Shown piece after piece: positions 1,502 to 28,055 of a DNA stretch of 64,000 nt (position 1 is its first letter; each line of letters opens with the position of its first letter). The notes below the pieces were generated by a model that saw only the letters and a program-made list of their open reading frames with translations, had not been told where the DNA came from and searched no databases. Both the position numbers and the translations under genes were made by a program. This DNA is from Utricularia gibba (Eukaryota > Streptophyta > Magnoliopsida > Lamiales > Lentibulariaceae): NCBI GenBank assembly GCA_002189035.1, contig CM007989.1, positions 2,294,001-2,358,000 on the forward strand, written 5' to 3'.

Positions 1502-1942
1502 TGTAGGAGGTAAGTAAGCCCATAATCTACAAATGGGCTGCTCAATAACGGAAGTGAGGCGTGAGATGCGTCTAATGGTTACCTCCCACTACGTCCACAA
1601 TTTATGGGAGTGGAGCATATGGAGCAGAGGTGGGGTCTGATCCAAGGAGTGGAGGGAGAGGGGAGTTATGTCTGGACAAGGGGGCACGGTGGATGATCCT
1701 AGCAGCTACTGAAGGAGTGATCACAAGAAGTGTGTGTTTCCTACGCTGGTGTGCGTTGTAGTAACTCTGTGTAAGTGGATCAGGGTGCTTCTTCTTGTTT
1801 ATAGTGAACTCTTGCATCTGGTGTGATTAACCAGAGGACATGAGGTTTTACCAACCAAGGAGCTGGCTTTTTACCTGAAACAGATTGTGTTCATTACACA
1901 TATTCAGCTGATTTTACAGGGTGACAGAATTGATTTCCTACA
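1502..1942 (+). repeat. 5' LTR of the Copia element
   Basis: The LTR runs from TGTAGGAGG to CTACA and is matched by 5987-6432. Relative to the 3' copy it lacks 5 bp near 1552 and has about 16 substitutions. It should hold the element's promoter and R region. Minus-strand open frames inside it are incidental. Confidence 0.93.
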
Positions 1943-1944
1943 GG

Positions 1945-1956
1945 TGGTATCAGAGC
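1945..1956 (+). promoter_or_regulatory. Primer-binding site, initiator tRNA-Met
   Basis: TGGTATCAGAGC, two bases after the 5' LTR, is the standard plant Copia primer site complementary to the 3' end of initiator tRNA-Met. The Gag start codon follows at once at 1958, so there is almost no untranslated leader. Confidence 0.9.
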
Positions 1957-1957
1957 C

Positions 1958-2701
1958 ATGGATGAGGTCCATGGTGTGCCAAAATTGAACACCACGAACT
2001 ACTCGTTGTGGCGTTCGAAGATCAAATCAGTGCTGGTATGCAAAGATGATTTATGGGACCCAGTCGTGACAGGGGTGAGTAGACCTTCCAATGTGGAGGA
2101 TATAGACTTGAAACAGTTGCACTTGAAGGCTGTGGCGATAATGAATCTGTGCATCGACAATACCCTATCGCACCGTATTAGTGAGTTTGATGATGCCCAA
2201 CAGCTATGGAAGACAGTGGAGGAGATGTTCCGTCCAGACAATGCGCTCAACAAGATAGCCCTATATAAACGCATGTCCAGGTTACGGTACAAAGATGGAG
2301 AATCGATGTCAGAGCATCTAAGCCGGTTCAAAGACATTGTTGATCAAATGGTGTCTGTGAAAATGAGTTTTGATGAGGAGATTCAAGCCATTCAGCTAAT
2401 GGACACACTACCTCACTCTTGGGAGACTCTGGTAATCACGTTAAGTAATTTTGCCAATAGTGGGCTGAAGTATGATGCGGTGGCTACGGCATTGCTTCAA
2501 GAGGAGTTGCGCAGACGCATTACTGGCCTAGAAAAAGGTTTTGATGCTAAGAACACTCTTGCCTACATTGATGGAGAGCACCAGAATCGGTCACAAGATC
2601 GCCAAAACCGTAGTGCTCGAGAAACCTCCAGAAAGCGAGACAAGTCCAATACTAGACATGGGAAGAACGATAAAAAAACAGAAACAAGGTCGTGCTTCTA
2701 A
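1958..2701 (+). pseudogene. Copia Gag, stopped inside the zinc knuckle
   Basis: This frame of 247 codons starts just after the primer-binding site. It has the N-terminal region typical of plant Copia Gag (LNTTNYSLW near residue 10) and the UBN2-type capsid region with MSRLRYKDGESMSEH. It ends at a TAA that falls between the first and second cysteines of the CCHC zinc knuckle. The remaining knuckle residues continue in the same frame after the stop. The nucleocapsid is therefore truncated in this copy. Confidence 0.85.
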
Positions 2702-5700
2702 TGTGGGAAAAAAGGGCACCTACGTAAGGATTGTCGAAGCTATAAGAAGTCTCAACAAGCTGCATCACAAGAGTGGAAGGGCAAAGAACCGTCTGAAACG
2801 AATTCTGCAGCATACCTGAGCGATGCTGATGACGATTTACTAGTACTCCTGGCAGCAGAAGCCGGCGAGACGGGTTTAGAAAACTCCTGGTTTGTTGATT
2901 CAGCAGCTTCCTTTCATGCGACTTCCAGAGGAACTGAGCTAGAAAATTATAGATGGTGCACCTCAAGCATCGTGAAGATAGGGAATCACTCTGTCTCAGA
3001 AGTAGCGGGGATCGGGGATTTAGAGGTTATCACGAATCTGGGAACATCATTACGGCTCAAGGATGTGAGACATGTGCCATCACTTCGTGTGAATCTACTG
3101 TCCGCGGGAGAGTTAGAATCACAAGGGTACAAACATAGCTTGGGAGACAGGACATGGAAGCTTCTGAAAGGGTCATTGGTGATAGCGAAAGGCCAGATGG
3201 TTGGACGTTTGTATAAAACAGAGCTCAAGCACAAGATGGCTGAGCTGAATGCTATTTCTGGTTCAACCACATCTTATGACCTTTGGCATCGAAGGTTGGG
3301 ACATTTATCTGAGATGGGTGTTCAGAGATTACTGAGCAGTGGTAGGATCGAATACTCAGGGGGCTAAAAGTGGCTGTGAGAGTTGTATTTATGGCAAACA
3401 TCATCGGGTATCATTTCAATCCAACTTTCGAAAACAATCAGGGAAATTAGAGGTTGTTTTCGCAGATGTTGGTGGACCCGTAAATGTCTCAACCGCTGGA
3501 GGAATGAGGCATTATTTACTCTTTGTGGATGATGCCACCAGAAAAACCTGGATATATCTTGTGAAAAAGAAATCTGATGTGTTTGAATACTTCAAGCAAT
3601 TCCATCGTATGGTGGAAAGAGAAGCAAGTACAAAACTCAAGTGCTTCTGGACTGATAATGGAGGTGAGTTTTGCAGTGACGAATTCAAACGGTATTGCTT
3701 GGAGTTGGGGATTAGGAAAGTGGCAACGGAACCTGGAACCCCGCAACATAACCCAATTGCAGAGAGATTGAATAGAACCTTGTTTGACAAGGTGCGTTGC
3801 ATGGTGAAAGATGCAAGGCTTCCTACAAGGTTCTGGGGGGAAGCCTTGAAAACTACTTGTTATCTGTCAAACAGGAGCCCCCAAAAGGCCCTTGCGTTCC
3901 GCATTCTAGAGGAAGAATGGCTAGGCAAACAGGTGAACTTCGATCATTTAAAAGTGTTTGGTTGCAAAGCTTTTGTTTTTGTGCCAGCAGATCAACGAAA
4001 GAAGCTAGATGATCACTCGAGACCATGTATTTTTCTGGGCTATGGAGACCCTGAAATGGGTTATCGCTTTTGGGATCCTGCTGGAAAACGAGTTGTACGA
4101 TCGAGAGATGTAAAATTTTTGGAGGATCAGAAGCACCCAGATCAGCTATCTCAGGGTCTTGATGAGGTCAGGCTGAATTTAGAGTTTTTAGGAGTGCAAA
4201 GCTGTGTTGGAGAGGTTCCTCCCACTGCTTCGGTTCTGCCAGAGGTGGGCAGCTCCTCCCAAGGTGTAGATTTAACCTCGAATGAGGCTCCTGAGAGGGC
4301 TACATCTGTGCCTGAACAGCCACGACGTTCAGCATGAGAATCAGTTCCGAGTACAAGATATTCAACTGATGAATTTATTCTTGTCACAGAAGAAGGTGAA
4401 CCAGAATCTGTGGAGGATGTGTTGCGATCACCAGATAAAGAAAAATGGCTAGAAGCAATGAGGGATGAGATGCAATCTCTTTGGAAGAACAAGACTTATA
4501 TACTCACAGAGCTACCTGCGAGAAGGAAAGCATTGGAAAATAAATGGATCTTCAAGCTAAAGAAAAACCCTGATGGCACCATTAGGTATAAAGCAAGGAT
4601 TATGGTAAAGGGCTTTCATCAAAAAGAGGGAATTGATTACCAAGAAATCTTCTCTCCAGTAGCAAAATTGTGAACCATCAAGATAATCCTGGCAATTGTG
4701 GCAGTGTTGAATTTAGAGCTCCAGCAGATGGATGTAAAAACTGCGTTTTTGCATGGAGAGTTAAAAGAAGATATTTTCATGAAGCAAGTACCTGGTTTTG
4801 TGGCAAAGGGTCGAGAGAAACTAGTCTGCAAACTCCAAAGAAGCCTCTATGGTCTGAAACAGGCTCCTAGGGAGTGAACAAGCGCTTTGATGGATACATG
4901 ATGCAGCTTGGGTTTCAGAAATCAGTTTCTGATCCGTGTGTATATCTAAAGGGAGTTGAAGATGATGTGGTGATCTTGATTTTATATGTTGATGATATGC
5001 TGCTCATCAGCAAGGAGATAAAACATATTGATGCTCTCAAGAAGCAATTGGGGTCAGAATTTGATATGAAAGACTTAGGTGCAGCTAAGAGAATTTTGGG
5101 TATTGACATTGAACGAGATAGAGCTCGTGGGATATTAACTCTCAGCCAGACACGCTACATTAATCAAGTCATAGAAAAATTTGGTTTGAGAAATAGTCGG
5201 TCAGTGTCAGTGCCTATGAATCTTGCTGTTAAATTGTCTACAGAATTCTGTCCAAAAGGGGAGTGTGAGCAGCATGAGATGAACAAGGTGCCCTTTGCTT
5301 CCTTGGTAGGATCGGTCATATACATAATGGTGAGCACTCGACCTGACATCGCTTATGCAATTAGTTGTATCAGCAGGTACATGTCGAATCCAGGTCGTCA
5401 ACATTGGGAAGCTGCCAAATGGCTGGTGCGTTATTTGAAGGGGACAGCCGAGTTATGCCTCTGTTATGACAGCAAGTTCTTGACCCCATGTGTGTATGTG
5501 GATTCTGATTTGGCAGGGGACATTGATACAAGAAGATCTACTACTGGGTTAATTGCTCTGTTAGGTGGAGCAGGAGTCATTTGGATGTCAACGTTACAAA
5601 AGTGTGTAGCTCTGTCAAGCACAGAAGCCGAATATATGGCCTTGTCTGAAGCTGGAAAGGAGGCCATATGGCTTGGTCGGTTCATGGCAGAACTTGGTCT

Positions 5701-5953
5701 GCAGGAACACAAGGTAACCATTTTATGTGATAATCAAAGTGCATTAATTTTGAGCAGACATCAGACTTATCACTCAAGGACCAAGCACGTTGATATGAGA
5801 TACCATTGGGTGAGAGATATGGTAGAACAGAATCAATTCCTGCTGGAAAAGGTGAAGACAGTTGATAATACAGCAGATATGCTGACAAAAATGTTAGCCT
5901 CCTCATGGCATATGATACTACTAAAGGAGGCTGGTCTAATGCTCAGCTGCTAA
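2702..5953 (+). pseudogene. Copia Pol remnants: protease, integrase, RT, RNase H
   Basis: After the Gag stop, the retroviral-type aspartic protease region (about 2890-3150, motif FVDSAAS) and the GAG-pre-integrase domain lie in one frame to 3367. The frame then changes, and integrase follows from about 3340 to 4330 with YGKHHR, the DDE-type core (TDNGGEF) and ERLNRT. A TGA at 4335 interrupts it. The RVT_2 reverse transcriptase starts near 4430, has a TGA at 4671 and a frame change near 4865, and then carries the YVDD catalytic motif near 4988. RNase H with its DNQSA and SRTKH motifs ends at 5953. Several breaks make the unit non-functional. Confidence 0.88.
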
Positions 5954-18479: not shown

Positions 18480-21400
18480 ATGGGGCCATACGTTCCTCAA
18501 CAGTTCGCCGGTGATGGCAGGAAAAAGCAGCAGTTAGAAATTGTAAGAGTCAAAAGGAACCCTTTCGAGAAGATGCGTAGATGGAAGGTGAGTGAAGGTC
18601 GCGGAAAAATTAGGGTTGTGATTTCCTCCAAAATTGAATTTCTCTCTCTCTGTGTTTTTTTTTTTTTTTTTTTTTTTTGTTCTCAGCAAGCTACTATGGT
18701 GTTGAGTGCCTTTCGGTTATTTGGGTCCAAATCAGGATCCAAGATTCAAAAGCAGGGGAAGCATTTGAGGGCCAAGATGAAAGCAAATGCTCATGCTGTT
18801 AGGGTTGCTGAAAGTTTGAAGTTGAAAATTTTTTATTCTTGTCTGTGTTGATAATGAGTCATGATTTTTTTTTTTATTGGAGGCAGGCTGCTGCGCATCT
18901 CCAAGCTTCTACAAACGGTATGAAGTTTAATTTTCCTTGCCTCTATATAAAAACTATCTGCTTGATTCGATATATTTATGAACAGATGATAATGGACTAC
19001 GGAAGGAACAGGACGAAGGGAGTAAAAGATATGTTGTTTGTACAGAAAAGAAGTCTACAACACCTGTGGGAGAATTCCTACAGAAAGATGGTGTGGATTC
19101 AGGAAAAGGTTTAGTGGTTTTCTTGTTTGGTTTAGGAATGCAAGAAACTTGAAGTTGATATACTGATTTTTAGATTCTAAAGGAAGCTTACATGTAGGTA
19201 GTAAAAGATATAGTGTTTGTACAGAAAAGAAGTCTTCGACAACAATGGCACAACTCCTACAGGAAGATAATTTGCATTTGAAAAAACGTCGGTTAGATGA
19301 ATCTGAGGTTTTCTTGTATTGTTTACGAAACTTGGAATTTTGATGTCTATATTTTTATCAAATGCAGAAGAATTGTGCCATGAAGGAAGCAAGAGATATA
19401 CTATTCGTACAGAAAAGTTAACAACATCCAGGAGTGAATTCCTACAGAAAGATGATTTGGGTTCGGGAAAAGGTTTGTTAAAAATCCATCCACGGTTTTC
19501 ATGTTTGGTTCTTAATCTTGTAAACTTGATGCTGGTAAAATCTTGATCAGATGCGAAAGGAATATGCCATGAAAGAAGCAACAGACATACTATATGTGCA
19601 GAAAATAAATCTGCAACAACTGAGAACGAACAGCTACAATATGATGGCTTGGACATGGGAAAAAGTTCCTTAGATCATTCCACGGTTTGCTTATTGAGTT
19701 TACGTGTCTCTGTTCTTTTTTCCTTCTAATTCATTGTGATTGACAGCAAGCATGACGCTAGTTCAGGGATACATGAAAAAGCTGGAGACTGTAACAAGAA
19801 TTGACAACTTTGGTATCAGCCTTAAGGATCTATCTGCCATGTCTAAGGAGCATGACATCTCTTTCTTAGAGCGAAATGGAGGGGCAAGTTTTCTGTCTAT
19901 TATGCATGTATCAACACTGAAATGTTTTTCCATTTGATGGATTTCCTTTTACGTTAGATTGGAGGAATTGCTGGGAAGCTAATAACGAATTTGAAAGAAG
20001 GTATATGTGGAGATGAGACTGATGTGAAACTTAGAAAAATGACTTTTGGATCAAATGAATATCCTAAGAAAAAGAGAAGCTTCTGGGTAAATTCATCTAC
20101 TCAAGAGATTATGTCGGTCCTGTTAGTGTAGGATTTTGCTCCACTTTCTTAACTTTTTCACCTGCTTATCTTCAGAGATTCATCCAGGATTCATGTACGG
20201 ACACCACCTTGGTTATCTTGATGTTTGCAGCTGTTGCTACTTCAGCCTTTGGAATAAAGACAGAGGTGAGGGATAGTACAATATTGGGTGAATAAAGGTC
20301 ATCTTCTGCTTAGATGAATAAAACAGGACTTTCGTATGTTATTAGGGAATAAACCGAGGTTGGTATGAAGGAGCAAGTATTGTTTTGGCTGTTCTTATAT
20401 TCATCATGTTTACAGGTATCTTTTGCATACTCATCATGTTTTGAGATAGCAACTATTTCGTTGTTGTAAAGGTTGGTTTTATTTCTTCTCAGCTGTCAAT
20501 AATTTCAAACAATTCATACTGATCCAGAAGATGGAAGAAGAAAAGGAGAAGATACAAGTGGAGGTCAGGGATATGCGCTGCCACTGTGCTTGCTTCTCTT
20601 CGTTTTCTTACTCACATGTTATGAATCACAGGTCCTTAGGGGCAATTCCCAAACAAAAGTTCACATAACAGAAATAGTTGCTGGGGACATTGTTAACTTG
20701 AGAACTGGTGATGAGGTGAAACCAAGTGTAACCAGTTTTCTTGTAGGCTCTTTCTCATCTTGTTAGTATATGATCTGTATTTATCTTCCCTTCAAAACAA
20801 AAAAACAGGTACCTGCAGACGGACTTGTCATCACCAGTCATTCCCTGTCAGTCGACGAGTCAAGAATGACAGGGGACAGTAAAATTGTGAGTAAATGCGA
20901 CAGTATACATTTTTTAGTTGTACACATTTTGTCTTAACGAAACGGGTTTTGTTTTTCTCTACAGATTCACAAGGATGCTGCAAGAGAGCCCTTTCTTATG
21001 GCAGGATCTAAAGTTGTTGATGGCAGGGGAAGAATGATGGTAAGAATCTTATATTCATGAAAGCCATCCTAAAATCATAAAAAATTGTGGGATTATTTAT
21101 TCTTGCACAGGTTACAAGTGTAGGAACCAATACTGAGTGGGGACTACTCAAGGCAAGCAGCATAAACGATCATCAAGAAACTCCTCTGCAGGTTACACAC
21201 TGCTGTTGGCAATTTTTAACATGCCCTCCCACCATCTTCTGATCATGAAACTGCTGCATCTTTGTCATGATTTCAGGTGCGGCTGGACGACGCAGGCACA
21301 TTCATCGGCATAGTTGCTGTTGTAGTATCTGCAGTGTTTCTCACTGTTCTTGTCATCGGGTACAAATACAACAAACACAGTTAGTTCTCTGGTTATTCCC

Positions 21401-21985
21401 TTCCTATTCTTTGACAACTCAATCACTATTTGTATGTGTAGGCTTTTTAGTTGGCGCAGTAGAAACCCCTATGGTAGTCTAGAGTTCATGACCTCAAGGA
21501 TCAAGTTGGTCAATGCAACAAACACCTTCATCAAGATTTTTACTGTGGCAGTAAATTCTCACACATTTCATTTGTGAATCAAAACCACATAACTGTTTAC
21601 AGCATATTACACTTTTTTTTTTTACCTGTTTCCTTCAGGTCACCATATTTGTGAAAGAAGCCCGTGAAGGCCTCCTCTTGGGCATCATTTTAGTGTAAGT
21701 TGAATGTCTAATATTAAAGTTGTTTATAAAACCCTTTTCAAAATGAATAACTAATAGTATATGCTTTCCATGCAGGTTTGCCTACTTGATGAAGGAATTA
21801 TATGCCAAAAAGGTCAATCCCATCATTGCATATATTTTATTTCTATTATTATTATTTATTTAAAAAACAAAACATGACTTGCCGTTTGCCTTCTACGCCA
21901 GGTACAAGCCAAGGGGCTATCCACAAGCCTGGAGATGGATGAGGTGAAAGAGCGAAAGAGGCGCAAACTTTTTCTTTGCATTTAG
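18480..21985 (+). CDS. Half autoinhibited Ca2+-ATPase (ACA8/10-like N-terminal half) with four inserted repeat exons
   Basis: Twenty-one exons join into one open frame of 638 residues: 18480-18587, 18687-18820, 18883-18917, 18986-19108, 19174-19287, 19368-19472, 19551-19664, 19747-19883, 19958-20086, 20176-20265, 20346-20415, 20493-20563, 20632-20715, 20809-20886, 20965-21039, 21111-21191, 21277-21359, 21442-21550, 21639-21694, 21776-21812 and 21902-21985. Residues 27-50 resemble the calmodulin-binding autoinhibitor of ACA8/10 (FEKMRRWKQATMVLSAFRLF). Residues 93-244 are four repeats absent from ordinary ACAs. Residues 245-333 match the ACA linker, 334-387 TM1-2, 388-516 the actuator domain and 517-610 TM3-4. 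The stop falls about a dozen residues before the position of the DKTGT phosphorylation site, so the P and N domains and TM5-10 are missing. The actuator TGES is TGDS (459-462) and the TM4 PEGLP is REGLL (589-593). Pumping is therefore not expected. It could be a regulator, a dominant-negative form or a young pseudogene. Confidence 0.8.
18986..19664 (+). repeat. Four tandemly duplicated exons encoding a repeat of about 38 residues
   Basis: Exons 18986-19108, 19174-19287, 19368-19472 and 19551-19664 are 123, 114, 105 and 114 nt long, all multiples of three and all phase 1. Each encodes a version of GSKRYxxCTEKKS followed by EFLQKD or similar and GKG. The copies have diverged (CTEKKS, RTEKLT, CAENKS), but the frame is open in all four. 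The flanking introns also share text such as GGTTTTCTTGTTTGG, so exon and intron were duplicated together. I do not recognise the repeat from any family. Confidence 0.8.
19884..19957 (+). other. GC-AG intron in the half Ca2+-ATPase gene
   Basis: The donor reads GGG|GCAAGT. Using GC keeps the frame (LERNGG then IGGIAGKL), and no GT nearby does. GC-AG introns are a known minor class with a strong donor consensus, which this one fits. Confidence 0.65.
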
Positions 21986-22412
21986 GAGGTGTTCTGATAA
22001 TATTGATTATTAAATGTCACAATTTTGAGATACAGACGCAGAATCACATATTATACCTTCTTTTCTTTTCTGTTGAAAGTAAGATATGATCGAACCGTGT
22101 ATATATAGACTGTGAGCTCATTACAGAACAGCACAGCTGTGTTCTTTTCAGGGATTCCTGCTCTGCATTGTCTAGTTTGTGTGATCTTGCTCAACTCTGA
22201 TTCCTCAACGCTTGGTGGAAACCTCGTCTGAAGTGAAGTGCTAGCTAGCTTTATTGTGATGAGTCCATAAAAATACAAGCACAAGATGAAGAAAGAAAGC
22301 CTACTGCCTGACTGAACTCCCATGCTTCATCTCTGGTTGGTTGAGAGGAAGAATGGAATTTCACAGGTGACGCGAGACTGGCGTTTACAAAAGCATGCAA
22401 CTGGGTGCCTCT
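21986..22412. other. Convergent 3' region between the half Ca2+-ATPase and PMT genes
   Basis: The stretch holds the 3' UTRs of two converging genes. I searched it for continuation of the ATPase (DKTGT region) and saw none. The PMT gene begins immediately after, so the missing half of the pump is not downstream. Confidence 0.6.
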
Positions 22413-24862
22413 TTAAAACTGCCGGGATGTCGACCAAAGCTTCTTTCTGGCAACGAGCACTGCGTCTTCCTCTAGGCTGGCTTCTGGAACCGAATCGCCT
22501 ATGGCTTCCCAGCGCAATGGGCCCAGATACTTCTTTACATAGTTGACTACAGTTAGCTTATCATGGATGATGACAACGCCGGAAGGTCTAAGAATGCGGT
22601 CCATCTCAAGAAGAAGATCCTCGCTGCTACATCCTTTCTTCTTGATATCCGAAAAGACGGTCCAGGCATGGAGTAGGTCGTAAGTTCTGGGGTACGTGGA
22701 GAAGGCCTCGCACCTGCATGCAGAATGGTTCAGAGATGAAGCAAAGAGTGAAAAGACACAGTTAGTAAAAGGAAGCATAAAAGGTAGGCGTACCAGTTGT
22801 GCACACTGCCAATCAAACCTCGGTCATAGATAATCTTGAGTGTATTGGGTCCATCTTCAGGAACAACATTCATCACCCAGACATCCCTTTCTTTCAATGC
22901 AGCAGCAAAGGATCCTATGTTTGCTTTCATGTCCATCACATTTCTTATGCTATCAGCCAAAATATTTGGACCCAATATACTCCAATATTTGTCCACCCTT
23001 TGACGCCACAGATCCTGCTTGCAAAATTTCTCAACATTACACAAAGAACTGCCATCCCATATTTTGTCCAGAGTTGCAGATAATAATAGCAAGGTGAAGG
23101 AGAAGATACCGAATCATTTTCAAATATCTCGGATGAATAGCCGAGGTCAGCAAGGCGAGGAGGAGGAGAAATTAATCGAGCAGGCCATGGAGCCAGTCCA
23201 CTGCCTCTGGCTTTATGATCATCTGCAGTAAGAAAGAAGGAAAATAACATTGAAGTCAACGACTGATCAGCAAAAAAGGAGGGAGATGATAGTTTTCCAT
23301 CCAGGGTGGACATGCAGAAAGTAGGTATATGGTCTTTGTGTTAGCGATGCTCACGTTCAGAGTAGGGCATGATACAGGCCTTCATTGGTACACCCCAAAC
23401 GGCATCAGGATCATCATCTGATGCACAGAGAGGCGGCCGGGTTCCAGGCTTTCTTTCCAAATAGCAATGATTTGTTAATGGTTTTTGCCAAATAGCAGTC
23501 TGGTTTTTCCTTGCCACAACTTTCCAACACATGCGGCCAACAAGTGCATTCATCTCCTTCCATATTCTGCGATCCTCTTCATCCTGAGCATAAGCTTCAG
23601 GTGATGAGTAAACAAAATAACCGCCAGGTCGAAGAAGCCGATCCAACTCCAGAAGTAGTATCCCATCCCGCTGCAGCCAGTCGATTCTACAACGAGAACA
23701 ATGAGCTAGTTCAAAGGATCTGCTTGGGTAAGTGAGTCTCTTTGAACCTAGAACACCAAGGTATGCAGGAATTCCTCTTTCTAATGCGAATTGGATCTGA
23801 TTTTCATGCACATCATTAGGAGCAAGTGACATTGCAATCATGTCCGATGAAAGAAGGTAACCACCAAAGCTTGCAACACCACAACCAACATCAAGAACTG
23901 TGCGCAGTTTTCCTCTGTTGTTCAGGTTACTGTTCGGAAACTTGAGCATCTGCGATATCAAAAACAGTGTTCAGTAAGTGCCCATGCATTCCAAGGAGCT
24001 AGTGAGTCAGAAATTGCAATATGCTGAAATCAGCCGGTCAATTAGCATTTTCATATTTAAAACTCACACTTGCAATAGAAGCAATGTATTTATCAGCTCC
24101 ATAGTGAAAGTGAGTTCCTCCACCAGGAAAATAAATTTTGTTCCCTTTAACAACCATCCAATTCTGGTCAGATTTCTCGTGTGCTAAGTGAGTGTGAGGA
24201 ATGTTGGCTTTCCATACTTCATCTCTACTTTTTGGCCATTTTACTGGAATCTGTGGCTCAAAATGTTGCAAAACATTAGAGAAACAACAGAAACTGAGGT
24301 GATAAAACCACAATAACAACCATGAACGTAGATGTCCTCACCTTATATCCTCGAGGAGGTGGGATCAGACAATTGTAACGTCTGTCAGGTAATGGGCAGT
24401 GCCGTTCGTAGTGTTCCATTAAAGAATAATCCACCTTCAATCTCGTTTGATAAATAAGATTTTTGTCCAGGCAGGGGATCAACTCTGAAAGGTTATCATC
24501 ACAGACCTTTTGACATGCAGAAGATGATAATCAGAAATTGATAGCGGACTTCTAGTGTACTACTACTAGAATCTGAAGTGCCACAAAAATATGAAATCAC
24601 TTACAGGAAAGCTCTTGGGGAAAGCATCATCTGTCCATAATTTGGTGTAAGCTTCATGTAGCATACTAACAGAATCGGAATCTTCATCTCCATGCAAATA
24701 TGAAGATCCCAGTTTCATCAGAGACTCTTTGCCATACTGCAGAGCAGACTCTCCGGAAGTTCTTTTGCCAAAGTGGGCGTACAAAAACACAAGAAAAAGA
24801 GCAGCAAACACCACATAAGCAAAGATCCGCTTTTTATGTGCTCGAACTGAGCGCCCTCTCAT
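22413..24862 (-). CDS. PMT-type pectin methyltransferase, Golgi type II membrane protein
   Basis: Seven exons: 24862-24605, 24506-24342, 24250-24068, 23949-23355, 23222-23110, 23014-22794 and 22713-22413, encoding 611 residues in an unbroken frame. A short basic N terminus ([12 protein letters not shown]) precedes one membrane anchor (residues about 13-31). The DUF248/methyltransf_29 domain follows: [19 protein letters not shown], the SAM-binding motif [28 protein letters not shown] and [20 protein letters not shown]. The C-terminal half holds [17 protein letters not shown] and [12 protein letters not shown]. These proteins (QUA2, PMT8 group) are thought to methylesterify homogalacturonan in the Golgi. 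The N terminus and overall length are closest to the PMT8 group as I remember it. Confidence 0.92.
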
Positions 24863-25230: not shown

Positions 25231-27162
25231 AACAATTTACAAGAATCATTTGGGAGAACAGATCTTCCAACTACTACATTGCCATTCTCTTTATACATTC
25301 AGAAAATCAGGAATTTGTGAAGACTAGATTTCCTAGCCAATCCAGCCTGATTGTCTAAGCCCTACGGAGTGTCAGAAAGGTTCAGATCTGAAACCTATCA
25401 TTATATATATTCTACATTCACACAGAATATATAACATGAAAAGTAGTTGGATGTCATATTTGGGTTTCCATTTCTCGAAAAATCGAATTTTTGACCTTCA
25501 GAAGTCAAGTGTCTCCCTAATAGTTCAAGAACAGCCCCCTCCCCATACATGATCTTACAAGAGAAAGTCACAATCCAGACGCCTCAAGAATCCGGATAGT
25601 CTTGCGATTTCAAACCGCCGGGAAAAACATACACAACATCTTATTGAATTCCAGGTAGATGAAACGGTAAATCAAACTCAAAAACAAATAGATCCGCAGA
25701 CAAAACAACAGATAAGGTCTAAAAGAAATAGGATTCTAAACTTATCGGATAATGTGACAGCATACGTGTGTCCAGTCAGAAGAATAAAAAACCAGAATAT
25801 TTGTTGCCCAATAACACATACCAGATCTATGCCTTCCTTTGAAGCGTTTGTATTATACATCTTACTTGCATACACTTGAATCGGAATGCGTCAATGGAGA
25901 AAAAGATAACTCATAGAAAACGTTGAAGCTAAAAGTGACAGGTCGGGTGCCAACTTGGGGATCAAAACAGTGATAATTTGGCAGCGGATTTGGGGATACA
26001 ACCGGCGTCCGCGATTTGGGCATGAATTGATGAGACCCAGAATTTGTGGAAGACGGTCAATCGAGAAAATGCAATGAAAATGAACCCTATGTGATTAACG
26101 CCGTTCAAGTAGCTGTTTGCCATTCCTTCTCAAAAACCACAAACGAAGTAGCCGTTTGTCATTGATGAAGGCGCATTTTAACCATATCATTATTTTCTTG
26201 GGTTCCTTTTCTTTGCTTTCTATAATTTCTTTTTTACGTTAGTCAGGCGGAGGGCGATGCAGTGGCGGCGGTCAGACAACCCGGCGCGGCGGGATATTGC
26301 CACAGCAATTTTAGTAATTAGGGTTTCATAATTGGGATTAGTCGTACGGTATCACTTTATAAAAACCTTATTTTTCTAAAATGTAATTTTTTCAAATGAT
26401 AGGGATAAGTTTACTAAAAATCCGCGGGAACTACAGCTTCTCGCTTTGAACTAATTAAAATAAACGGTATTTTTTAAAAAAAACAAATAATAATAGTGAT
26501 TATTAGCGCCATATCATCATTTGGAAATGAATGTTCTATGGATGCCTTTAGTTGTAAGATTCATATATGTTAAAAATATGTGTGGATAGGATAAAATATA
26601 ATTTTTTAATAAATTATGTTTAGGATGAAAACATTATTATTTATATAACAATTATTATATTATTATTATTTTTAATGTGTATTAAAAGAAAAATAAAAGA
26701 TGAAAATGCAAAATTTATATATTCTAAACTTTAGATATATCTAATACTAATTCCAATCATAAGTTTTATTTCAATTATTAAATGTGATATTTTAATGTCT
26801 CTTGAAATTTTCCCTCTAATACCATCAACAAGTTGGACCTCCAAAAACGGTTTAACAGAGTGTAGGCTGTGAAGCACTGAACACCGTCTTCCATGAAGCA
26901 CTATCACTTCACCTAACCTGCACATGGGAGGAGATGTAAAGGAGGTGCGATCAGTGGGGGGTGGCCTGGCCAATATGTTGTACGGATACTTGACTTGTTC
27001 GTGAGGGGTGTAGTGTAGTGTGGAACCGAGCAGAAAAATGGGAACATTTAGAGGAATCTTTTATTGCTGAATCGTGTGTTGTGGTGGACAACACGAAGAA
27101 CAGATTTCATGTTGTGGTGGGGACCTTAGCTAGTGCTGTGGATGTACGCGTTGTCTGTTGTC

Positions 27163-27168
27163 TATAAA
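27163..27168 (+). promoter_or_regulatory. TATA box of the glycine-rich protein gene
   Basis: TATAAA lies 54 bp before the start codon at 27222. That leaves a 5' UTR of about 25-30 nt, typical of short-leader, highly expressed plant genes. Confidence 0.6.
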
Positions 27169-27221
27169 TGCCATTCTGCTGCGTCCATGGAGGATCAAGT
27201 TTGTAGGCATAGCACAGTGCT

Positions 27222-27779
27222 ATGGAAGCCAAGAAGGGAAGCGTTGTTGCCATTCTTGTCTTCCTGGTGCTGTGGGTTGCAGCATGCTCTGCAGCCAGGA
27301 CCTTGATTGGGGTGGAGACATACCATGGAGCTTTCGGTGAGGGTGGAGGGTCGGGCTTCGGGGGTGGAGAAGGTGGAGGCGGCGGTGGTGGAGGTGGGTT
27401 TGCAGCAGGTGGTGAGTATGGTTCCGGGTATGGGAGTGGTGGTGGGGAAGGCCATGGCGGCGGTGGTGGACTCAATGGTGGCGGTGGTGGTGGCGGCGGT
27501 GGTGGAGGCGGCGGAGGTGGAGCTGCTGGTGGATACCCTGGCTATGGTGGTGGGCATGCGTGGGGATACGGAGGAGGTGAAGGAGCAGGCATTGGTGGCG
27601 GACATCCCGGAGGATATGGCGGCAGTGGCATCGGGGGCATTTACGGTGGGGGTGGCCGCGGTGGCTCCGGCTACGGGAGCGGAGGAGGAGCAGGTGGAGG
27701 TGCCGCAGGCGCAGCACATGGAGGAGGATATGGTGGAGGCGAAGGAGGCGGCGGCGGTTATGGTGGCTATGCTCCTTGA
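27222..27779 (+). CDS. Secreted glycine-rich protein (class I GRP)
   Basis: A single exon of 185 residues. An N-terminal signal peptide (MEAKKGSVVAILVFLVLW, cleavage probably after the alanines near residue 25) leads into a short non-repetitive segment (RTLIGVETYHGAFG). From residue 39 to the end the chain is (Gly)n interrupted by Tyr, Ser, Ala and His. There is no cysteine-rich C-terminal domain and no RNA-binding motif, which fits structural cell-wall GRPs or vascular GRPs. Glycines use mostly GGT, GGA and GGC in GGN runs, so the other frames and the antisense strand are also open. Those are shadows. Confidence 0.88.
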   Translation: MEAKKGSVVAILVFLVLWVAACSAARTLIGVETYHGAFGEGGGSGFGGGEGGGGGGGGGFAAGGEYGSGYGSGGGEGHGGGGGLNGGGGGGGGGGGGGGGAAGGYPGYGGGHAWGYGGGEGAGIGGGHPGGYGGSGIGGIYGGGGRGGSGYGSGGGAGGGAAGAAHGGGYGGGEGGGGGYGGYAP

Positions 27780-28055
27780 CGCCGGGTGATGATCATGCAC
27801 TACTGATTCTGCAAATGCAAGCATGCCTCAAACTGGAAGGATGCCCCATACGGCATTCCAGTGATGTATGGCAATGTACTTTGCTTATGCATCTTCATAA
27901 TACAAACTACATTTAAAAAAGAACATCATCTGTCTACTTAATCTACCTTAGATATGACAGCTCCATTGAAGATATTACAGCTCCATTTGTTGTTGCACCT
28001 GGAGCTTCCATAGATTCCTTTCAGGCACGACACAATCCTTGCCTGCAAAATCCTC
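27780..28055. other. 3' region of the glycine-rich protein gene
   Basis: Non-coding as far as I can see. It should contain the GRP 3' UTR and, on the other strand, the 3' end of the weak minus-strand candidate. Confidence 0.5.

Follow-up and report, generated by a model that had tools for sequence, protein, structure and literature searches.

A truncated ACA8/10-type Ca2+-ATPase gene with an open frame across 21 exons in Utricularia gibba

P-type ATPases without catalytic parts have been described before. S1T, a truncated isoform of human SERCA1, keeps transmembrane segments (TM) 1-4 and cannot pump (PMC5840383, PMC10058886), and is reported in PMC5840383 to raise Ca2+ leak. Plant P-type genes without key motifs, one of them with cDNAs, are listed in PMC3355532, and footnote 12 of that paper concerns a non-pump protein in which TGES and PEGL are altered and DKTGTLT is missing. 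Here we describe a gene that shares features with each of these, located at 18480-21985 on the forward strand of a 64,000-nucleotide stretch of the Utricularia gibba genome (the window; GenBank assembly GCA_002189035.1, contig CM007989.1, positions 2,294,001 to 2,358,000). With a probability of about one half, we read it as an old copy of a gene for an ACA8/10-type plasma-membrane Ca2+-ATPase, which would now encode a fast-evolving, non-pumping membrane 'half-pump' that acts through its membrane and actuator half.

The window gene differs from the known cases in several ways. S1T arises by splicing from a working endoplasmic reticulum pump gene, whereas the window gene is a gene in its own right, diverged and of P2B class; and the footnote 12 protein, as far as its description goes, appears to run past DKTGT, as motifs of its later domains are altered too. 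The best solved relative is plant ACA8 (8qmp), with which the product is colinear over residues 245-613 (350.6 bits) and in a weak second stretch at 25-81 (15.4 bits). The introns and their phases are those of the ACA paralogues, but the phosphorylation (P) and nucleotide (N) domains and TM5-10 are absent, TGDS and REGLL replace the usual motifs, the N terminus is degenerate and there are four extra exons. No plant half-ACA gene with a function was found among the open-licence PMC papers listed, which were the best few of longer lists.

Gene structure and the missing catalytic half

Three ACA8/9/10-type paralogues from the same genome (100.1 Mb in 516 contigs), L029, L030 and L031, were given splice models by aligning them with Salvia ACA8 and a further ACA protein. 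The aligned part of L029 (Salvia residues 7-1068) is clean. L030 (G000:C414:2896500-2906400) and L031 (G000:C413:3618000-3627900) gave nearly whole-length ACA alignments with three and two one-base frame breaks, respectively; all five are near runs of at least three identical bases, and are perhaps assembly errors or the early decay of two further ACA copies.

The window gene reads as 21 exons (E1-E21) that join into 631 codons and a TAG with no internal stop. This reproduces the exon number, matching phases and open frame of an earlier note made from the DNA alone, but not its 638 codons, the splice choices differing by a few codons. Nineteen of the 20 introns are GT-AG and one is GC-AG, the donor of which (after E8) is common to the three paralogues (GCAAGT in L029 and L030, GCAAGA in L031). 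Intron phases are identical to those of L029 at all 16 shared places, with E4-E7 outside the comparison. Exon lengths were compared for E2, E3 and E8-E20, E1 being left out because the paralogue E1 aligned only in part; ten of these 15 internal exons are identical in length to those of L029 and the other five differ by multiples of three. A hidden frameshift at the E17/E18 join, where one reading gives a stop at the acceptor, was considered and rejected, as the paralogue splices at the equivalent place and the join is ancestral.

The protein tracks ACA8 up to 'LSTSLEM' (ACA 'LSACETM') and then continues for 15 unrelated residues. Homology stops at 'ETM', nine residues ahead of the DKTGT aspartate, and DKTGT itself is absent; the earlier note had rightly seen the loss before DKTGT, and put it about a dozen residues ahead. 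When the tail DNA was aligned with the DKTGT exon, its score was matched by 128 of 1000 shuffles for L029 and 502 of 1000 for L030. E21 and the DKTGT exon are both 84 nt long, but the part of E21 after 'ETM' aligns no better than shuffles, and E21 was rejected as a degenerate DKTGT exon. No catalytic exons were detected in 21939-22420 (score 28; 200 shuffles gave a 95% point of 28 and a maximum of 32), and a tblastn search with Salvia ACA8 found nothing further in the window, including P- and N-domain exons. Genome-wide, no detached catalytic half was recognised among at least 75 P/N-domain matches sorted by coordinates by eye; by coordinates, those listed belong to L029-L031, to other P-type ATPases or to a copy on C515 riddled with stops. 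Within the genome, 21600-22420 has no match besides itself. The C515 copy (L032, G000:C515:199500-209400) lacks introns at the exon joins, and its P/N region contains stops; it looks like a processed pseudogene, in contrast to the clean window gene.

Two motifs upstream of this point are also changed: the actuator loop TGES is TGDS (residues 452-455), and VPEGLP in TM4 is AREGLL, with R for P in PEGL and KE just before it, bearing out what had been noticed earlier. Because homology ends before DKTGT, no detached half was recognised and both motifs are altered, the product is unable to be phosphorylated or to pump by itself. The TM4 changes preclude pumping independently of the join after 'ETM'. 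The proposal that only the regulatory and actuator half of an ACA-type pump is encoded thus holds, in the form of a non-pumping relic of an ACA8/10-type pump.

Only two Pfam families were found at E<=1, PF00122 (cut-off 28.1 bits) and PF00690 (cut-off 20.4 bits), and both clear their cut-offs (Table 1); TM1-4 and the actuator are thus present without P or N domains. The N-terminal autoinhibitory domain PF12515 scored 12.4 bits, below its cut-off of 25, compared with 67 for the N-terminal piece of an intact paralogue. The calmodulin/N-terminal region is the least conserved stretch, at 32% identity to L029 (L029 versus L031, 61%). It does keep W35 and F48, 13 residues apart and spaced as in L029 and L031, which we take to be the calmodulin anchors of ACA8, and its net charge is +14 over 60 residues, against +10 and +12 in L029 and L031. 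The ACA8/10-like calmodulin-binding N terminus of the earlier note is therefore borne out as a weak ACA8 likeness with W35 and F48 kept, but it misses the PF12515 cut-off. The hydropathy sum of TM1-3 is 6.93 versus 7.01 in L029 (neutral P 0.0017-0.067 over four settings), retained mainly via TM2 and TM3 (TM3, 3.04 versus 3.12), with TM1 alone uninformative. TM4 was assigned by homology; its second half is more hydrophobic than in the pump (1.76 versus 1.03), and its first half is less so and falls below the hydropathy threshold.

The closest scored protein is Salvia ACA8, with 55% identity over 58% of the query, among 7998 candidates sharing most words. In the tree, the window gene groups with Lentibulariaceae ACA8 genes on a long branch (1.04) with support of only 69, and L029 and L030 group with Genlisea with support of 96. 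Intron positions and phases, PF00122 and PF00690 place the predicted gene in the ACA8/10 clade by descent, and PF12515 does not.

E4-E7 are four tandem exons of phase 1-1, of 123, 114, 105 and 114 nt (35-41 codons), which form a direct repeat (D1) with a spacing of 179-192. Their place corresponds to intron 3 of the intact paralogues. They are absent from L029, L030 and L031, and make the arm that links the calmodulin region to the core about 150 residues longer; the earlier note speaks of them just as repeat regions. A genome search gave no further copy, and in 20 DNA comparisons with the paralogue or the gene's own exons none scored above the best shuffle (lowest 3/60). At the protein level one repeat of the four resembles the paralogue linker (4/200 shuffles), which was too weak to be used. 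Exon-versus-intron identity among the repeats was equalled by shuffled sequences.

Truncated ACA models are also found in other plants. Olea P0107 and Sarracenia P0110 end, like the window gene, between TM4 and DKTGT, but PEGLP is ordinary in both and each stops where an exon ends, so that they look like fragments or models with a retained intron. DKTGT is absent from 53 of 119 ACA-like proteins (from the best 120 of 160 matches). In 14 of the 53 the match with the paralogue extends to residues 378-467, and in nine of these it stops at 450 or 464-467, where paralogue exons 15 and 16 end; these too look like fragments or retained introns, their TM4 having been examined in part. After E19 of the window gene there is a phase-2 donor (GT/gtaagt, window 21693-21698), where intron retention would give an immediate TAA. 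The Olea and Sarracenia models, known from protein alone, end at 'LAVTLT' and maybe follow the same phase-2-donor retention rule.

Selection on the frame and age of the duplicate

Codon analysis was performed with a home-made GY94-type model on 455 aligned codons of the window gene, L029, L030 and L031. Omega (dN/dS, the ratio of nonsynonymous to synonymous substitution rates) was 0.478 on the window branch (dN 0.337, dS 0.704) versus 0.074 elsewhere. A separate omega for this branch fitted better than a single omega (twice the log-likelihood difference, 2dlnL, 47.9) and better than omega=1 (2dlnL 6.8, p ~0.009). Bootstrapping gave a range of 0.30-0.80, with one of 100 replicates at or above 1, and the dS of 2.6 on the L031 branch is near saturation. 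The earlier note had named a dN/dS near 1 over the whole frame as the observation that would count against it; this was not seen.

By region, constraint is clearest in the actuator domain, with an omega of 0.32 and the lowest p of all regions (0.014 versus 1); identity to L029 here is 62%, compared with 80% between L029 and L031. Omega is 0.22 in TM4 (p 0.047 versus 1), where the dS of 2.3 is unreliable. It is 0.60 in the calmodulin/N-terminal region (p 0.44), 0.57 in Cation_ATPase_N (p 0.22), 0.52 in TM1-2 (p 0.64) and 0.73 in TM3 and the following loop (p 0.65). Among the four E4-E7 repeats it is 0.48-0.55 over three topologies (2dlnL 2.4-3.9). The region-wise comparison suggested earlier thus gives values below 1 for the actuator and TM4, and ones that are not clearly below 1 for the repeats. 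At positions invariant in 17 other ACAs the ancestral residue is kept at 109 of 175, compared with 9 of 39 at the most variable positions.

The extra amino-acid change would need neutral drift of about 0.31 substitutions/site (derived arithmetic) on top of ordinary constraint. Simulated drift of 0.31-0.35/site put a mean of 11-15 stops into the 455 codons (11-14 at 0.31), and none of 2000 runs was clean at each of four settings; a clean frame survived in 0.2-0.8% of runs at 0.1/site and in 5-9% at 0.05. All 20 introns have usable ends, for which the neutral P is ~3e-11 at 0.31 substitutions/site and ~3e-4 at 0.1. This is the pattern of a coding gene that has been kept open, rather than of freely drifting DNA. 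The purifying selection proposed earlier is supported as a constraint on the frame (omega 0.48, p ~0.009, no stop), but was overstated for much of the protein.

The most pump-specific part, TM4, has lost most of its usual conservation. The loss of pumping looks old because TM4 is 40% identical to L029, while L029 and L031 agree there at 98%, and its age rests mainly on this comparison. The duplication is not young, as dS is about 0.70 on the gene's own branch versus 0.41 between L029 and L030. The young truncated duplicate that the earlier note offered as its alternative is therefore rejected for the duplication but not for the truncation, which could be younger. The frame stayed open as pump-specific residues disappeared; this is not evidence that it was kept after the loss of the 3' half.

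Proposed function and competing explanations

The half-pump would have kept the N-terminal cytosolic arm, lengthened by the four tandem exons, together with TM1-TM4 and the actuator, and lost the P and N domains and TM5-10. Its predicted product would sit in the membrane and act via the TM1-3/actuator half. By forming pairs with full-length ACA pumps (or their partners), or by competing with them, it would most likely lower or tune Ca2+ export; calmodulin binding by the arm perhaps persists as a weaker secondary feature. The function is placed in the membrane/actuator half because the N-terminal region misses PF12515 and is the worst conserved. By analogy, action in trans on full-length ACAs would be the most likely function. 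The isolated ACA8 regulatory domain is reported to bind the ACA8 core weakly in trans and to be displaced by calmodulin (PMC6255812); this bears on the regulatory domain rather than the actuator half, and the step to the window gene is ours. A fuller version, in which a dedicated gene (not a splice form) for a non-catalytic P2B half was selected as a membrane partner tuning full-length ACAs, with a newly evolved tandem-exon arm that lengthens the linker behind the autoinhibitory region, is tentative and in our view less likely than not.

Several points weigh against the half-pump reading. Selection is strongly relaxed, with omega about six times the background, and only two of the six regions, the actuator and TM4, fall below 1 on their own (p<0.05). 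What TM4 says about age is mixed: in two 19-residue pieces, set against the identity expected at 0.35/site, one falls below expectation (0.42; expected 0.49-0.50) and the other does not (0.68; expected 0.50). The truncation may postdate the duplication, and part of the constraint may predate the truncation. The splice-site argument is partly circular because some donors (e.g. GTTGCT after E2) were picked as fitting, and the exon-length agreement is the more independent support. The trans partner and the sign of its effect are guesses.

The main rival is ongoing decay, in which the gene is an ACA8 paralogue under relaxed selection, evolving fast, whose 3' half went missing fairly recently and whose open frame is a leftover without function. 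This is quite possible, given the sixfold omega, the four regions (calmodulin region, Cation_ATPase_N, TM1-2 and TM3) that are individually indistinguishable from omega=1, the destroyed TM4 ion-site motif and the lack of a close orthologue, the best of the 7998 scored candidates being the Salvia protein. Truncated duplicates are, moreover, commonly pseudogenes. A protein-database search with residues 1-326 found nothing at E<=1 among 1538 candidates, but its control was weak and the absence is uninformative: with the first 130 residues of an intact paralogue, the best 120 of 160 matches had a top identity of 79% and the organism's own ACA8 was not seen among them, the filter of 296-941 amino acids having excluded full-length pumps. 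What speaks against decay is that the TM4 changes suggest an old loss of pumping, yet no stop, frameshift or splice loss has followed, and a frame is unlikely to stay clean past about 0.05-0.1 neutral substitutions/site.

The remaining alternatives are less probable. Were the gene a calmodulin sponge or a calmodulin-gated regulator, its arm would bind calmodulin and the membrane half would be a mere anchor; the W35/F48 spacing and the charge of +14 agree with this, as does the binding of calmodulin by full-length ACA8, for which an apparent Kd of 18 nM is reported (PMC6255812). The arm is, however, the least conserved part (32%, omega 0.60, p=0.44 versus 1), it misses the PF12515 cut-off and the actuator is better kept, so a calmodulin-binding regulator, as the earlier note had suggested, is not supported as the reason for the constraint and is unlikely. 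Slightly less likely still, by analogy with S1T, is a leak or ion-conducting protein rather than a regulator, a reading which overlaps the half-pump: the retained parts are those of the leak-raising form (PMC5840383), and truncated SERCA1 forms are said in PMC10058886 to perhaps serve as cation channels, but TM4 is heavily changed here and no feature of the sequence bears on conduction. The calmodulin and leak readings are other forms of kept function; as the rivals overlap, our estimates for them do not sum to one. An assembly or annotation artefact, with the real gene continuing into a catalytic half, is very improbable. The frame breaks in L030 and L031 do indicate possible single-base indels in the assembly, but no DKTGT-exon homology follows 'ETM', the Salvia ACA8 search and the P/N matches yielded no further or detached half, the TM4 changes forbid pumping in any case, and an open frame of the next gene lies on the opposite strand (22413-22823), ~430 bp beyond the window gene.

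Feature coordinates, neighbourhood and meaning

Table 1. Parts of the window gene, in window positions
Feature	Positions	Strand	Content
Exons 1-3	18480-18587, 18687-18803, 18887-18917	+	N terminus; degenerate ACA8-type calmodulin-binding/autoinhibitory region
Exons 4-7	18986-19108, 19174-19287, 19368-19472, 19551-19664	+	Four tandem exon copies
Exons 8-9	19747-19883, 19958-20086	+	Cation_ATPase_N; PF00690 40.2 bits, residues 281-346; E8 ends at ancestral GC-AG donor
Exons 10-11	20176-20265, 20346-20415	+	TM1-TM2; hydropathy, 64% identity to L029
Exons 12-16	20493-20563, 20632-20715, 20809-20886, 20965-21039, 21111-21191	+	Actuator; PF00122 94.1 bits, residues 399-540
Exons 17-18	21277-21359, 21442-21550	+	TM3 and the loop after it; exon lengths and phases equal to those of L029 E13-E14
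Exons 19-20 and start of 21	21639-21694, 21776-21812, 21902-21937	+	TM4 region; homology ends at 'ETM'
Tail	21938-21985	+	Last 15 codons and TAG; no detectable homology to DKTGT exon

For two neighbouring frames, taken by eye to be eIF5-like and methyltransferase genes, the best paralogues lie on C321 and on C413, C4 and C187, and not beside the ACA paralogues. Elsewhere in the window, several frames at 1934-5953 resemble a Copia-type retrotransposon by eye only, and 27107-27827 holds a glycine-rich frame (27213-27779, +), where long open frames overlap on the two strands.

If it is expressed, the window gene would represent a natural pseudo-pump, in which the regulatory/actuator half of a Ca2+-ATPase has a gene to itself, kept within a very small plant genome. 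It would then offer a system for asking whether the P2B actuator half can act in trans, and would extend to plants the set of truncated P-type ATPases for which a function has been proposed. As a decaying copy, it would instead be a good illustration of how long a 21-exon frame stays clean.

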